From Sporosarcina ureae (GTDB lineage Bacteria; Bacillota; Bacilli; Bacillales_A; Planococcaceae), in assembly GCF_002101375.1 (NCBI RefSeq), contig NZ_CP015207.1, forward strand, positions 1,162,501 to 1,226,500: DNA of 64,000 bases. The letters are read 5' to 3'. The position numbers and the translations under genes were made by a program. The notes beneath the pieces are model-generated. The model ran no database searches and was not told where the DNA came from. It saw nothing but the letters and a program-made list of their open reading frames with translations. Positions 4,255-40,790 of this stretch are shown here, in pieces (the stretch's first letter is position 1; each line of letters opens with the position of its first letter).

Positions 4255-5541
4255 ATGAACCGAAAAAATTCAGAAGCGATCTACGCAGAAGCATGTGAAC
4301 ATATTGTGGGCGGTGTTAACAGCCCAGCTCGAGCTTACGGAGCTGTTGGCGGAGGTGCACCTACTGTCATGGAACGTGCAGAAGGCGCTTATTTCTATGA
4401 TGTAGATGGCAATCGTTATATTGACTACTTGGGAGCATACGGTCCAATCATTACAGGACACGCGCACCCACACATTACAAAAGCAATTACGAAGGCAGCG
4501 GAAACAGGCGTACTGTACGGTACACCTACACGTCACGAAGTACAATTTGCCAAAATGTTAAAAGAAGCTATTCCAGGAATGGACAAAGTCCGCTTCGTTA
4601 ATTCTGGTACAGAAGCTGTCATGACAACAATTCGTGTAGCAAGAGCATATACTGGACGTACGAAGATCATGAAATTCGCAGGTTGCTATCACGGTCACTC
4701 GGATCTAGTATTAGTAGCTGCTGGATCAGGTCCCGCTACATTAGGAACACCAGATTCTGCAGGCGTCCCTTCTTCTATCGCGAAAGAGGTCATTACCATT
4801 CCGTTCAATGATCCCGAAAGCTATAAAGCAGCAATGGAACAATGGGGGGATGAACTGGCTTGTATTCTAATCGAACCGATTGTCGGGAACTTTGGAATCG
4901 TCGAGCCGAATGAAGGTTTCTTGGAACTTGTTCATGATTTAGCTAAAGAACGAGGTGTTTTGACTGTCTACGACGAGGTCATTACAGCATTCCGTTTTCA
5001 TTATGGCGCGGCACAGACGTTACTTGGACTCCAACCCGATTTAACAGCTTTCGGAAAAATTATCGGTGGCGGCTTGCCAATCGGTGCTTACGGCGGTAAA
5101 AAAGAAATCATGGAACAAGTTGCTCCACTCGGCCCTGCTTATCAAGCTGGAACAATGGCTGGAAATCCTGCCTCTATGCTTTCAGGAATTGCTTGCCTCG
5201 AAGTGCTTCAAGAACCAGGTATCTATGATGAGATGGATCGCTTAGGTGGTTTACTTGAAGACGGCATTTTAAAATCGGCTCAAAAACACCGTGTTCAATT
5301 GACGATCAATCGTCTAGGAGGCGCACTTACTTTGTTTTTCACAGACGTCAAAGTGGAAAACTACAAGCAAGCTGAAGCGACAGACGGTGAAATCTTTGGA
5401 CGGTTCTTTAAAGAAATGCTAAAAAACGGCATCAACTTGGCGCCATCTAAGTATGAGGCGTGGTTCTTAACTTCTGCTCATACAGAATCAGATATAAACG
5501 AAACACTGGAAGCAGTAGATCGTGCATTTAAAACACTTTAA
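4255..5541 (+). CDS. hemL: glutamate-1-semialdehyde 2,1-aminomutase
   Basis: 428-residue class III PLP aminotransferase-fold enzyme that converts glutamate-1-semialdehyde to 5-aminolevulinate in C5-pathway tetrapyrrole synthesis. It has the substrate loop GGVNSPARA near the N-terminus, [10 protein letters not shown], the Asp of [10 protein letters not shown], and the PLP lysine in [17 protein letters not shown] (about 267). It starts with ATG after GGAGGAATT, with TATAAT just upstream. In B. subtilis the gene at this place is gsaB, a second copy outside the hem operon; whether that holds here cannot be seen. 5-Aminolevulinate also feeds siroheme, used by cysI in this window. Confidence 0.95.
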
Positions 5542-5615
5542 ATTAGAACAATTGACCGTATTATGCGTATATTGTAAAGTAAGCATAAAAGAGCTTTTAG
5601 GAAAGGAATTACCCA

Positions 5616-6695
5616 ATGAAACTTGGTGCCCGCGTCTTTAAGACGGGTATTGCGATTGTATTTGCTCTGTTTCTCGCAAATTTACTAGAATTACCTACAG
5701 CAGTGTTCGCGGGTATTGCAGCTATATTCGCAATCCAACCCTCTATTTACAGATCGTACTTAACAATAGTTGAACAATTGCAAGGTAATTTAATCGGTGC
5801 CACTATAGCAGTCTTATTCACACTCATCTTCGGACCTCAATTAATAATTGTCGGTTTGGCAGCTGTCATCGTTATGACTATTATGTTGAAACTTGGACTC
5901 GAAAAGTCTATGTCACTCGCACTTGTTACGATGATTGCGGTGATGGAGGTAAAAGATGATGCCTTCTTAACATTTGCCCTTCTTCGTGTAGGTACAATTT
6001 TGGTAGGTGTACTAGCAGCATTCATTGTGAATCTAGTATTTATGCCGCCGAAATATGAAACGAAACTGTTTCAGGCGATTCATCAGGCACAGGATGAAAT
6101 TATTCGTTGGACGCGTCTAGCTGGTCGTCAAGCCTCTGAACACACAGCTATGAAGAAATCGTTGAGTAAGTTAAAAGAACGTCTGATACAAATTGATCAG
6201 CTGTACTTATTATTTAAGGAAGAGCGCAGCTATTTCAAAAAAACTTCTGCCGCAAAAGCGAGACGACTTGTTGTCTATCGCCAATTGATCGGTACAACTA
6301 GGAGTAGTTATGACGTCCTAAAAAGGCTGCATAAGTTTGAAAATGAACTCATCAATCTCCCAGAGCATTTCCGAATGATGATTCAAGAGCGTCTAGAATC
6401 ATTACTCGTCTATCATGAACAGCTTCATCTGAAATTCGTCGGTAAACTAAAGGCGGATTTCGACGAAGATGAAACCCATAGTGAGTTTATTCAACGACAA
6501 GAAGTTATGAATATTTTCGTGAAGGAAATTGCGATAACTAGTGAAGAAGAGGAGTTTTCTTCCTATCACTTACTTCATGTCCTTTCAGCTATTCTGAATT
6601 ACGAAGAACAGCTGGAGCATCTAGATACGCTGATCACTTCTTATCAAACACGATATGAAGATGAAGAGAATATTTTAGAAGATGAATTCTATTAA
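5616..6695 (+). CDS. aromatic acid exporter family membrane protein (YgaE-like)
   Basis: 359 residues. The N-terminal ~145 residues are hydrophobic, with four to five membrane segments, and the rest is a hydrophilic, helix-rich cytosolic tail. That is the layout of the DUF939/ArAE_1 (FUSC-like) family, and the position after hemL matches ygaE of B. subtilis. Export of small aromatic or other organic acids is a family-based guess. ATG follows TAGGAAAGG. Terminated by the hairpin at 6697-6735. Confidence 0.75.
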   Translation: MKLGARVFKTGIAIVFALFLANLLELPTAVFAGIAAIFAIQPSIYRSYLTIVEQLQGNLIGATIAVLFTLIFGPQLIIVGLAAVIVMTIMLKLGLEKSMSLALVTMIAVMEVKDDAFLTFALLRVGTILVGVLAAFIVNLVFMPPKYETKLFQAIHQAQDEIIRWTRLAGRQASEHTAMKKSLSKLKERLIQIDQLYLLFKEERSYFKKTSAAKARRLVVYRQLIGTTRSSYDVLKRLHKFENELINLPEHFRMMIQERLESLLVYHEQLHLKFVGKLKADFDEDETHSEFIQRQEVMNIFVKEIAITSEEEEFSSYHLLHVLSAILNYEEQLEHLDTLITSYQTRYEDEENILEDEFY

Positions 6696-26025: not shown

Positions 26026-26604
26026 ATGACATCATTATCCGAAATTATGATTTATAACAAATCGTTCGTTGAAGAAAAAAAGTACGAAGAGTTTTCCACT
26101 ACGAAATTTCCGAATAAACGGATTGTCATCCTCACGTGTATGGATACAAGATTAATCGAGCTTCTTCCTAAAGCAATGAATTTAAAAAATGGCGATGCTA
26201 AAATCATTAAAAGTGCTGGCGCTATTATCACATCTCCTTTTGGCGGTTTGATGCGAAGTATATTAGTTGCCGTTTATGAATTACAAGCAGATGAAATATA
26301 CGTGATCGGGCATCATGATTGCGGCATGAGCTCGATCAACACGGATCACATTATAGGAAACATGATTGAGCGCGGTGTTGATCCGAACATGTTCAAAACA
26401 TTGAAGTATTCCGGTATCGATATGGAAAAATGGTTGCACGGTTTCAGCGATGTGACAGAGAGCGTGAAAAAGAGTGTGGACGCGATCCGCAACCACCCTC
26501 TCATCCCAACCGACGTAAATGTTCATGGTCTTGTAATCGACCCTGCTAACGGCAAGCTGGACATTATTGAAGATGGTTACAATGCACAAGAGTTATCTCA
26601 GTAA
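26026..26604 (+). CDS. ytiB: beta-class carbonic anhydrase (YtiB-type)
   Basis: 192 residues. Zinc-site motifs: Cys and the Asp-Arg dyad in LTCMDTRL (about 38-45), then His and Cys in GHHDCGM (about 97-103). It hydrates CO2 to bicarbonate in the cytosol. I use ATG 26026 behind AAGGAG at nine bases; a longer frame starts in the upstream terminator. It is a single gene with its own terminator. Confidence 0.9.
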   Translation: MTSLSEIMIYNKSFVEEKKYEEFSTTKFPNKRIVILTCMDTRLIELLPKAMNLKNGDAKIIKSAGAIITSPFGGLMRSILVAVYELQADEIYVIGHHDCGMSSINTDHIIGNMIERGVDPNMFKTLKYSGIDMEKWLHGFSDVTESVKKSVDAIRNHPLIPTDVNVHGLVIDPANGKLDIIEDGYNAQELSQ

Positions 26605-26615
26605 AATAATTAGAT

Positions 26616-26650
26616 AAAAAACCGGCCTCTTTGTTATGAGGCCGGTTTTT
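26616..26650 (+). terminator. carbonic anhydrase terminator
   Basis: 13-bp stem AAAAACCGGCCTC / GAGGCCGGTTTTT with T5 tail, just before the tandem array. Confidence 0.9.
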
Positions 26651-26658
26651 GTGTTTTT

Positions 26659-27594
26659 ATGACGTGTGGCGTAGTGGGGCTATGAGCGGTTGTAGGGCGA
26701 CTTTGAGCGCTCAGGCCAAATGTATGAGCGAATCCAACGCAATATAGAGCGGTTAGCCAGCGGGATAGAGCGATCCGGCATGAACTATGAGCGCCTACAC
26801 GAAACTATGAGCGGAAACGCGTTCGCGCTGTTGCTCCACCTTAGAATGACGTGTGGCGTGGTGGGGCTATGAGCGGTTGTAGGGCGACTTTGAGCGCTCA
26901 GGCCAAATGTATGAGCGAATCCAACGCAATATAGAGCGGTTAGCCAGCGGGATAGAGCGATCCGGCATGAACTATGAGCGCCTACACGAAACTATGAGCG
27001 GAAACGCGTTCGCGCTGTTGCTCCACCTTAGAATGACGTGTGGCGTGGTGGGGGGCTATGAGCGGTTGTAGGGCGACTTTGAGCGCTCAGGCCAAATGTA
27101 TGAGCGAATCCAACGCAATATAGAGCGGTTAGCCAGCGGGATAGAGCGGGCATGAATTATGAGCACCTACACGAAACTATGAGCGGGAAACGCGTTCGCG
27201 CTGTTGCTCCACCTCAGAATGACGTGTGGCGTGGTGGGGGGCTATGAGCGGTTGTAGGGAGACTTTGAGCGCTCAGGCCAAATGTATGAGCGAATCCAAC
27301 GCAATATAGAGCGGTTAGCCAGCGGGATAGAGCGGGCAGGCATGAACTATGAGCACCTACACGAAACTATGAGCGGAAACGCGTTCGCGCTGTTACTCCA
27401 CCTCAGAATGACGTGTGGCGTGGTGGGGCTATGAGCGGTTGTAGGGTGACTTTGAGCGCTCAGGCCAAATGTATGAGCGAATCCAACGCAATATAGAGCG
27501 GTTAGCCAGCGGGATAGAGCGATCCGGCATGAACTATGAGCACCTACACGAAACTATGAGCGGAAACGCGTTCGCGCTGTTGCTCCACCTCAGA
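26659..27594. repeat. five 187-bp tandem repeats with 21-bp phased GAGCG cores
   Basis: Five near-identical head-to-tail units starting with ATGACGTGTGGCGT at 26659, 26846, 27033, 27219 and 27408. The unit lengths are 187, 187, 186, 189 and 187 bp. Each unit contains seven TGAGCG/AGAGCG cores: in unit 1 they start at 26684, 26705, 26726, 26747, 26768, 26789 and 26809, that is every 21 bp (last gap 20). About 62-65 bp without a core separates one set from the next, close to three 21-bp steps. The 13-16 bp between cores differ within a unit but are kept between units. No credible gene lies here, and terminators flank the array. Function unknown. Confidence 0.95.
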
Positions 27595-27599
27595 CATCA

Positions 27600-27642
27600 A
27601 GAAAAACCAGCATCTTCTATTCGAAGAGCCGGCTTTTCCATA
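27600..27642 (-). terminator. possible terminator of the GNAT gene
   Basis: Imperfect hairpin with arms around CCAGCATCTTC and GAAGAGCCGG, followed on the minus strand by a TTTTTCTTG run. Weak stem; placed between the array and the GNAT gene. Confidence 0.45.
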
Positions 27643-27676: not shown

Positions 27677-28222
27677 TCAATAATCCGCTTCCACAATGGC
27701 ATACATATAGTGATCTTCCCATATACCATTAATAAACAGTAATTGACGCAACAACCCCTCACGCTGGTATTTCGCTTTTTCCAATACTTTGACCGAACCT
27801 ACATTACGAGGAGATACATAGGCTTCTATCCTATGCAAATTCGCTTTTTCAAACGCAAATTGATTAATGAGTGAGACTGCTTCAGTCCCAATGCCTCTTC
27901 CTGCTTGCCGCTGATCAATGGAATACCCCACAAAACCACTGGAAAACGGCAACCGTTTAATACTATACAATGAAATTTGGCCAATAATCATACTAGTTTC
28001 CGAATCAAAAATTCCGAAATTGTACTCTCGTCGATCACGCATTTGATAAAGTGATTCTCGAATTTTATCCCGTTGCATTGCTACTGTGTAATACGTATTA
28101 TCGTGTTTTGGTTCAAATTCTGTCCAGTATTCCTTATTGGCGATAAGTAGCTGGGTGAATTGATACGCATCATCTTCCGTGAGTATTCGTAGGTAGCACT
28201 GCTCCCCTTCGAGTAAAATCAT
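27677..28222 (-). CDS. GNAT N-acetyltransferase, RimJ/RimL type
   Basis: 181 residues with a RimJ/RimL-like GNAT fold. The pyrophosphate-binding loop region is YSIDQRQAGRGIGTEAV (about 102-118), and NHRL-type residues follow as LHRIEAYVSPRNVGSVKVLEKAKYQREG in part (LHRIEAYV, NVGSVKVLEK). It would acetylate an N-terminal alanine/serine of a ribosomal or other protein, or a small amine; the target is unknown. ATG after ATGAGGACAA. Single gene reading toward the 187-bp array. Confidence 0.87.
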   Translation of the reverse strand: MILLEGEQCYLRILTEDDAYQFTQLLIANKEYWTEFEPKHDNTYYTVAMQRDKIRESLYQMRDRREYNFGIFDSETSMIIGQISLYSIKRLPFSSGFVGYSIDQRQAGRGIGTEAVSLINQFAFEKANLHRIEAYVSPRNVGSVKVLEKAKYQREGLLRQLLFINGIWEDHYMYAIVEADY

Positions 28223-39149: not shown

Positions 39150-40385
39150 CGTCTTACTCACTTTTGGTTGGGGACGTCGCTCGACTGATTGTTAGGTATT
39201 GAAATTAGCGAGGGTATGCTTTCTGGACCCGCGCAGGCACGTGGGGGATTGCCTCCAGCCCTGAGCCAGCTGGCGATGGGGCTGCCAGTTGTCTCAGGGC
39301 CACGGCCTACCCCGCAGTTGTGCCTGCGCTACTTTGGGGAAAAGAATTAGTTTGTGTTTCTAGCAAAGAGAAAACCAGTGACATGGTGATAGCTATCATG
39401 TATTTCTTACTCACTTTTTGTTGGGTACGTCGCTCGACTTATTTTTGGGTACTGAAGTTAGCAAGTGTTCACTTTCTGGACCCGCGCAGGCACTTGGGGG
39501 ATTGCCTCCAGCCCTGAGCCAGCTGGCGATGGGGCTGCCAGTTGTCTCAGGGCCACGGCCTCCCCCGCAGTTGTGCTTGCGCTACTGTGGGGAAATGAAT
39601 TAGTTTGTGTTTCTAACAAAAAGAAAAACAGTGACATTGTGATAGCTTTCATGCATTTCTTGCTCACTTTTGTTGGGGACGTCGCTCGACTGATTGTTGG
39701 GTACTAAAATTGGTGAGTGTATGCTTTCTGGACCCGCGCAGGCACGTGGGGGATTGCCTCCAGCCCTGAGCCAGCTGGCGATGGGGCTGCCAGTTGTCTC
39801 AGGGCCACGGCCTACCCCGCAGTTGTGCCTGCGCTACTGTGGGGAAATGAATTAGTTTGTGTTTCTAACAAAAAGAAAAACAGTGACATTGTGATAGCTT
39901 TCATGCATTTCTTGCTCACTTTTGTTGGGGACGTCGCTCGACTGATTGTTGGGTACTAAAATTGGTGAGTGTATGCTTTCTGGACCCGCGCAGGCACGTG
40001 GGGGATTGCCTACAGCCCTGAGCCAGCTGGCGATGGGGCTGCCAGTTGTCTCATGGCCACGGCCTACCCCGCAGTTGTGCCTGCGCTACTTTGGGGAAAT
40101 GAATTAGTTTGTGTTTCTAGCGAAGAGAAAAACAGTGACATGGTGATAGCTATTATGCATTTCTTGCTTACTTTTGTTGGGGACGTCGCTCGACTTATTT
40201 TTGGATTCTGAAGTTAGCAAGTGTTCACTTTCTCGACCCGCTCAGGCACGTGGGGGATTGCCTCCAGCCCTGAGCCAGCTGGCGATAGGGCTGCCAGTTG
40301 TCTCATGGCCACGGCCTACCCCGCAGTTGTGCCTGTGCTACTTAGTGGTAATGATGTAAGTTGTGGTTCTAACAGAAATAAAAAC
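39150..40385. repeat. tandem array of ~252-bp units with GC-rich foldable cores
   Basis: Five cores at 39231-39329, 39484-39582, 39736-39834, 39988-40086 and 40240-40338, spaced 253, 252, 252 and 252 bp. Each core is GC-rich and bounded by GCGCAGGCAC and GTGCCTGCGC (10-bp inverted repeat). Inside nest GTGGGG/CCCCGC, CCCTGAG/CTCAGGG and AGCTGGC/GCCAGTT, so a single strand could form one long hairpin. The remaining ~150 bp per unit are AT-richer and include TTGGGGACGTCGCTCGACT. Because 252 is a multiple of three, 80-codon frames recur in each copy, but they lack good ribosome binding sites. No protein or RNA family recognised. Confidence 0.92.
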
Positions 40386-40790
40386 AGAGACAGGCGAACT
40401 TTCTGTCAGTGGCTCCTTACGAAACCCATCCACCAGCGCCGGAGTGAGGACCATGACCGCCCCAGTCTCATTGCCAGCAAAACCACGCACCCCTAACAGA
40501 AACGGAATCCAACAAGCACTAATTCCATTAAAAATTCAACTACTCACACTGCCTTGCACCATTTCCAACACGTAAACCATCCTATAGCACTATACTAAGG
40601 ATCAATATACTCTTTCTTCGCACTACCATGAAAACAAGAAACTTTCTACAAATCCCGGAAATAAAATAAATTTTCAAAAATACTACCCATGTTCGTTGAG
40701 TACTTACCATGCTTTAGAGTCTCTTCCAAATAAGAAATCGCCATTATTTAAATAAATAAAAATTTCAATCCCTACTATTCTAATTTGTAT
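40386..40790. other. intergenic stretch downstream of the 252-bp array
   Basis: About 400 bases with no gene I can support. The first ~110 bases are still GC-richer and continue an open frame from the array (to 40575), without a ribosome binding site. The rest is AT-rich leader before cysH. Confidence 0.5.

Follow-up and report, generated by a model that had tools for sequence, protein, structure and literature searches.

Many places on the chromosome of Sporosarcina ureae carry arrays of the five-letter core GAGCG in which, as shown by comparing their sequences, the sites lie two helical turns apart on one strand, with core and phase kept and the spacers between them free to change. We interpret an array as a series of sites, acting in cis, to which a putative dedicated protein would bind sequence-specifically, a reading towards which we lean, if by a little. 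This is because selection on a 5-bp core and on a two-turn, one-strand spacing, with free spacers, is the pattern expected of a cooperative row of binding sites.

A phased GAGCG array and its counterparts across the chromosome

The array that served as the starting point lies in the window, the 64,000-nucleotide stretch of DNA that was analysed, and consists of a seven-core unit amplified fivefold (Table 1). Its five tandem units are 187, 187, 186, 189 and 187 bp long, and TRF reports a period of 187 with 5.0 copies at 26659-27594. A recount confirmed what the initial annotation had described, namely units of 186-189 bp holding 35 GAGCG-type cores (32 GAGCG and three GAGCA, at 27161, 27351 and 27538) at steps of 21, 21, 21, 21, 21 and 20 bp within each unit, the sole exception being a 17-bp step in unit 3 (27144 to 27161). 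Its count of three GAGCGG cores per unit stood for units 1, 2 and 5 and failed for units 3 and 4, which have four each. The claim that the phase runs on through the core-free tails has to be given up: from one unit to the next, the core-to-core gap measures 62, 64, 65 and 62 bp in the window array, and its ortholog in a sister species (G018) has gaps of 73 and 70 bp, so that phase is kept inside a unit and is looser from unit to unit. No ORF of at least 60 aa spans 26659-27594, where every unit changes reading frame at its 20-bp step, and no protein-coding heptad repeat was found there.

Table 1. Array units and neighbouring features in the window (positions counted from its first letter)
Feature	Position	Strand	Remarks
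Carbonic anhydrase gene (Pfam Pro_CA), neighbour	26026..26604	+	
Terminator-like hairpin with T-run, 3' of carbonic anhydrase gene, 5' of array	26619..26652	+	script-scored (array row 1189184)
Array unit 1	26659..26845	+	7 cores, first GAGCG at 26684
Seven phased cores of unit 1	26684..26813	+	fits model of dispersed ~130-bp seven-core element
Array unit 2	26846..27032	+	7 cores
Array unit 3	27033..27218	+	7 cores including one GAGCA; a single 17-bp step
Array unit 4	27219..27407	+	7 cores, one of them GAGCA
Array unit 5	27408..27594	+	7 cores, one of them GAGCA
Hairpin with T-run, 3' of convergent GNAT gene, adjoining array	27600..27640	-	found by eye; not scored by script
GNAT acetyltransferase gene, convergent neighbour	27677..28222	-	

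A second tandem repeat of the window, at 39152-40392 (252 bp x 4.9), belongs to a dispersed element with 35 matches at about eight places in the same genome, mostly tandem; one strand of it forms a long hairpin (-71 kcal/mol, z -4.1).

Across the whole chromosome (G000, 3.35 Mb), a pattern of three phased cores matches 502 times (220 forward, 282 reverse), as against 0 matches for the reversed control pattern, and a sequence-only model of the seven-core unit, scored on 150 of 443 candidates, finds at least 168 matches. Cores chained by steps of 20-22 or 41-43 bp give 62 array rows including the window array, or about 60 arrays, with 823 cores over 20 kb; this number is a lower bound, obtained from the scored candidates of the model search plus one place from the pattern search. 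The rows hold 4 to 57 exact cores each, and no row results from the chain rule in the stretch around 2971803. Their steps, a table partly selected by that rule, comprise 598 of 21 bp, 24 of 20, 5 of 22, 65 of 42 and 11 of 41, where the middle word of a 42-bp step is an altered core, chiefly GATCG or GAGCA (24 each of the 65). The period also emerges when all 5-mers are considered, N words removed, in stretches chosen around or opposite GAGCG arrays rather than at random (420 kb from G000, 782 kb from G018). Counted on both strands, equally spaced triples at 21 bp number 1812 in the former and 1476 in the latter; no other spacing from 15 to 30 bp exceeds 26 in G000 or 96 in G018, and the top 5-mer at 21 bp in both is GAGCG with its complement.

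Counting each distinct 21-mer once (n=637), the consensus reads S-WWW-GAGCG-S-W-T-R, a motif of about 12-13 bp, after which some 8 bp show little base preference; the very number of distinct 21-mers indicates that the cores are alike and the spacers are not. Two sorts of array can be told apart, short ones of ~130 bp, whose roughly seven cores follow a recognisable order, and longer tandem ones. The short arrays have spacer letters in common, and so seem descended from one element.

Two species agree in the core, phase, place and orientation of their arrays

Comparison with the sister species G018 shows that core, phase, place and orientation of the arrays are conserved between the two, at least as far as their sequences tell. 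Both flanks could be placed in G018 for 28 of the 62 G000 rows (34 were unmapped), and at all 28 mapped places G018 has an array in the same orientation, none being reversed. Core number and unit structure mostly differ between the two species at these places, and yet among steps of 18-24 bp exactly 21 bp is found in 342 of 362 in G000 and in 377 of 417 in G018. In the 12 alignable pairs of similar length among the 28, identity is 97.4% for cores, a value that core-to-core alignment may inflate, against 66.5% for spacers and 80.1% for the intergenic flanks. Core and phase thus look selected: neutral homogenisation would preserve the spacers too, and does not explain the difference between core and spacer. 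A neutral minisatellite, arising by slippage and unequal exchange, would suit the 187-bp higher-order units and their changing number, but is at odds with a core kept far better than its spacers, with the predominance of exact 21-bp steps in both species and with the recurrence of the same core at some 60 places; we regard it as the least probable of the explanations weighed here.

At the place of the window array itself, the neighbouring gene was matched in 60 of 61 genomes, and among the 30 loci read an array is present in six, with five units in G000, three in G001 and G018, and one in G019, G024 and G079; in these six genomes the protein is also the most similar. At the remaining 24 loci, one of them interrupted by a contig end, this place has no array, and two of the genomes without one here, G012 and G068, have 449 and 485 pattern matches elsewhere. 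One, three or five units at a single place, depending on the species, fit the earlier suggestion of an old 21-bp array that was later amplified as a higher-order unit.

Gene context and strand polarity

With genes called by codon score, 25 of the 62 G000 rows lie between convergent genes, 26 between tandem and nine between divergent ones (four of these forming one cluster), two being undetermined. Several other arrays fall inside ORFs of at least 90 aa, which we read as chance, 21 being a multiple of three. Where a gene end faces an array within 300 bp, a terminator-like hairpin precedes the array in 37 of 65 cases and none does in 28, and the median distance between gene end and array is 81 bp. 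A Pfam scan of 17 genes neighbouring 11 arrays matched 16 and left one without a match; the neighbours include carbonic anhydrase, MreB, Rho, leucyl-tRNA synthetase and SHMT, and have no theme in common, which makes local gene control less likely.

Proximity to gene ends would also be expected of gyrase-binding repeats, and the arrays could in theory be topology elements without a dedicated reader, in which phased AT-rich triplets and GC-rich cores bend or wrap DNA for gyrase or a general nucleoid protein, a role known from the BIME-2 repeats of E. coli at gene ends. The three positions 5' of each core are A or T at 95-99%, the GC content is 53% in arrays and 40% in the window, and the ~130 bp spanned by a seven-core unit come near the gyrase footprint. 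Words that differ between species (see below) would likewise be expected if shape alone counted. Shape alone, however, does not call for the exact GAGCG that is kept at 97% between G000 and G018 while GC-rich spacer positions are not kept, nor for failed cores in the 42-bp steps that are mainly GATCG and GAGCA. A purely topological role is, in our judgement, distinctly unlikely.

The arrays are polar with respect to replication. Setting the origin at dnaA (1.886 Mb in G000) and assuming the terminus opposite, GAGCG is on the lagging strand in 44 of the 62 G000 rows, or in 41 of 59 if the clustered rows are taken as one (p = 0.004). A more distant species, G008, has it there at 19 of 24 places (p = 0.007), or at 19 of 26 when two single three-core sites at 621 kb and 1847 kb, both leading, are included; pooled, the two species have 60 of 83 places on the lagging strand. 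These counts are of places, and arrays of common descent are not independent events. Convergent gene pairs, which are free of gene-direction bias, have the core on the lagging strand in 26 of 35 cases (p = 0.006; 18 of 25 in G000, and 8 of 10 in G008, which alone is not significant at p = 0.11). Between tandem genes the array is antisense to both in 20 of 26 cases in G000 and in 8 of 9 in G008, and gene direction rather than replication could there account for the strand bias. Also of note, arrays are dense in G000 at 2.1-2.45 Mb, which on that arm is a distance of about 0.2-0.55 Mb from dnaA; in the array list, the opposite arm shows no comparable density equally far out.

The antisense orientation in those 20 of 26 tandem cases bears on whether the arrays act as RNA, either as structured RNA or as an RNA-protein sponge. 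Their location just 3' of genes would suit such a role, and in two of eight stretches the fold beats that of almost every shuffled version (z -1.96 and -2.54), but the other six have z between -0.80 and 1.55, and the consensus fold of eight arrays has 13 pairs, two of them with double changes, and an unfavourable covariation term (+0.38). Rfam returned no match at gathering score (for the window, and for the array searched loosely), its four weak matches lying at the terminator, outside the array. An RNA-level element is therefore extremely unlikely, given also that orientation.

Polarity relative to the origin further recalls Chi, the recombination site read by AddAB; the B. subtilis Chi is AGCGG, which has AGCG in common with GAGCG, and the initial annotation had pointed to it. 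The idea is not supported. Outside arrays (365 kb of G000) GAGCG occurs at expectation, with z -0.6 on the leading and 1.2 on the lagging strand, and its 245 leading versus 180 lagging occurrences rank 206 of 1024 in leading-strand skew, whereas AGCGG is more skewed (395 to 236). Most arrays are on the strand opposite to Chi's, and to our knowledge Chi needs no helical phase. We consider a Chi-like recombination-polarity site very unlikely.

A lagging-strand bias is, finally, the expectation for IS200/IS605-type insertion, which targets the lagging-strand template according to PMC6006769. The arrays might accordingly be selfish satellites, the core being read by an enzyme, for example a single-strand transposase on the lagging-strand template, that copies multiples of 21 bp without gain for the host. 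Such an origin would be in keeping with the ~130-bp seven-core element, whose common spacer letters are dispersed at several loci, and with the unit number that varies between species at the window place. It fits poorly with the agreement of position and orientation between G000 and G018 at every mapped place, and Y1 transposase genes do not go with the arrays: in a Y1 search that covered 37 genomes, the only Y1 transposase gene found in G000 adjoins a different repeat of ~50 bp, GAGCG arrays occur in G010 and G017, where Y1 has no match, and G013 has a Y1 match without a GAGCG array. We thus rejected a RAYT/Y1 transposase as the partner of the arrays, since array presence does not track the Y1 match. 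Plasmid and phage collections, moreover, hold no similarity to the window array. Selfish spread in this form we hold to be unlikely.

At locus L488, a solo Y1 (IS200/RAYT-like) transposase gene (5307-5912, minus strand) has beside it, at ~6090-6680, a tandem repeat of ~50 bp with ACCTGGTAC words, which is unlike the GAGCG arrays.

Other genomes, other words and a putative reader

Among the relatives sampled, the three-core pattern occurs in 33 of 61 genomes, the counts within the genus ranging from 0 to 577, and the reversed control has 1 to 23 matches in several congeners. GAGCG arrays are present in Sporosarcina sp. P32b, P34 and P2, in S. luteola and in S. koreensis, and, with their own letters around the core, in Oceanobacillus arenosus (95 three-core matches, 0 for the reversed control), Ornithinibacillus halophilus (317 and 69), Allobacillus saliphilus (70 and 0) and Virgibacillus oceani (197 and 131); the control matches in Ornithinibacillus and Virgibacillus imply that the signal there is partly common to the word GCGAG. 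The match counts of P32b, P34 and S. luteola equal exactly those of the sampled congeners G001, G024 and G004, respectively. Phase-kept GAGCG arrays in relatives, on which the first interpretation had been made to depend, are thus found genome-wide, at orthologous places in a sister species and in other Bacillales genera. Throughout the class Bacilli, a four-core pattern occurs in 13 of 250 genomes, of which three belong to the own genus and three more to the own family, these six having up to 485 matches; the matches in the seven others were rejected as arrays, since by eye they look like coding or simple tandem repeats. One further genome of the family, G281, has 42 and 32 four-core matches for the reversed GCGAG control and none for GAGCG, and may use GCGAG as its core.

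Evenly picked stretches, chosen blind to arrays, were scanned in G005, G014, G065 and others for other words. G014 has TTGCGCG and TTGGCG arrays at 21 bp and G005 a TTGCAC array at 21 bp, neither having GAGCG arrays; G065 has TATGATCG or TATGCTTG at 20 bp, G017 CGAGCG at 20 bp, and G062 and G068 have arrays at 20 or 21 bp of GAGCG- or GATCG-like words. Few clusters in these even scans fall off 20, 21 and their doubles, namely lag 15 (G005), 18 (G083), and 30 and 33 (G065). Other words at 20-21 bp in congeners suggest that the geometry is more constant than the word. At one locus of G014 (L327), TTGGCG and TTGCGCG arrays lie less than 5 kb apart (2379 and 6940).

A scan of genome contigs gave at least 80 loci, of which 13 were read in detail, nine of them Bacillales picked by name. 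One locus, L101, on a Prevotellaceae metagenome contig, is a 21-bp array of GAGCGGGAGCG-like units; three others, L107, L122 and L073, look coding and were set aside. The viral four-core matches (at least 80 loci) were likewise discarded, as 73 of the 80 listed lie inside an open frame and so look like coding repeats or chance.

Returning to the arrays as rows of protein-binding sites, we envision that the putative protein would occupy one face of the DNA and touch neighbouring copies, so that many weak 5-bp contacts would add up to one cooperative nucleoprotein fibre. Arrays would make use of the gaps between genes because these are for the most part not traversed by transcription, and the fibre would serve chromosome organisation, or fork or recombination traffic, rather than one gene; a role at the level of the chromosome is suggested by scanned neighbours that share no theme. 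Between species the core would drift together with its reader, and the two-turn geometry would stay. Several observations count against this reading. A core of only 5 bp that depends on the species makes one conserved protein not obvious; the period is mixed in G008 (61 steps of 20 bp and 58 of 21 bp); two congeners, G074 and G083, have no clear array in 120 kb each; reversed-control matches occur in some genomes; and hairpins were found at only the 37 of 65 facing gene ends given above.

More tentatively, and as something possible rather than probable, the arrays could form a chromosome-wide cis system of Bacillales, with dozens of intergenic, mostly origin-facing fibres and a fast-evolving putative protein, in which the word is rewritten (GAGCG, GATCG, TTGCGCG, TTGGCG, TTGCAC) and the 20-21-bp geometry remains constant. 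Such a system would be a bacterial counterpart of centromere DNA that co-evolves with its reader. If this is true, a group of Bacillales has an undescribed, selected, chromosome-wide DNA code with a putative reader protein, and species with different words and the same geometry make the joint change of a DNA-binding specificity and its sites directly testable. In practice, the arrays may hamper assembly from short reads and might be of use in marking strains.

The open-access literature, as far as its accessible texts go, yielded no earlier description of such arrays, and one may exist elsewhere. Among known systems, plasmid iterons and plasmid centromeres are alike in their direct repeats about two helical turns apart with an asymmetric core, which there a protein reads on one DNA face, as the putative reader would here, but the arrays occupy some 60 chromosomal places, no replication or partition gene is among the 17 Pfam-scanned neighbours of 11 arrays, and the plasmid collection holds no match to the window array. 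REP/BIME elements with their RAYT (TnpAREP) also occur in many copies, are intergenic and near gene ends, often between convergent genes, and the genome has a solo Y1 transposase gene as well; the array cores, in contrast, are non-palindromic and co-oriented, have no supported common stem-loop, and are present independently of a Y1 match. Chi sites resemble the arrays as a short polar word with a replication-strand bias, whereas the arrays' word is not enriched outside them, is mostly on the opposite strand and is helically phased. HIP1, DNA-uptake sequences and other frequent words are likewise short, frequent and spelled according to lineage, but HIP1 and DNA-uptake sequences are scattered words, while GAGCG arrays are defined by the 21-bp phase within them. 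In CRISPR arrays, too, conserved and variable parts alternate between genes, but CRISPR has near-identical repeats of 20-50 bp and unique spacers of like length, whereas the arrays have a period of 21 bp, a degenerate ~13-bp motif, a variable part of ~8 bp, some spacers common to several units, and ~60 places in one genome. Because every known family tested fails at least one defining feature, we rate the GAGCG arrays as a new kind of dispersed element.
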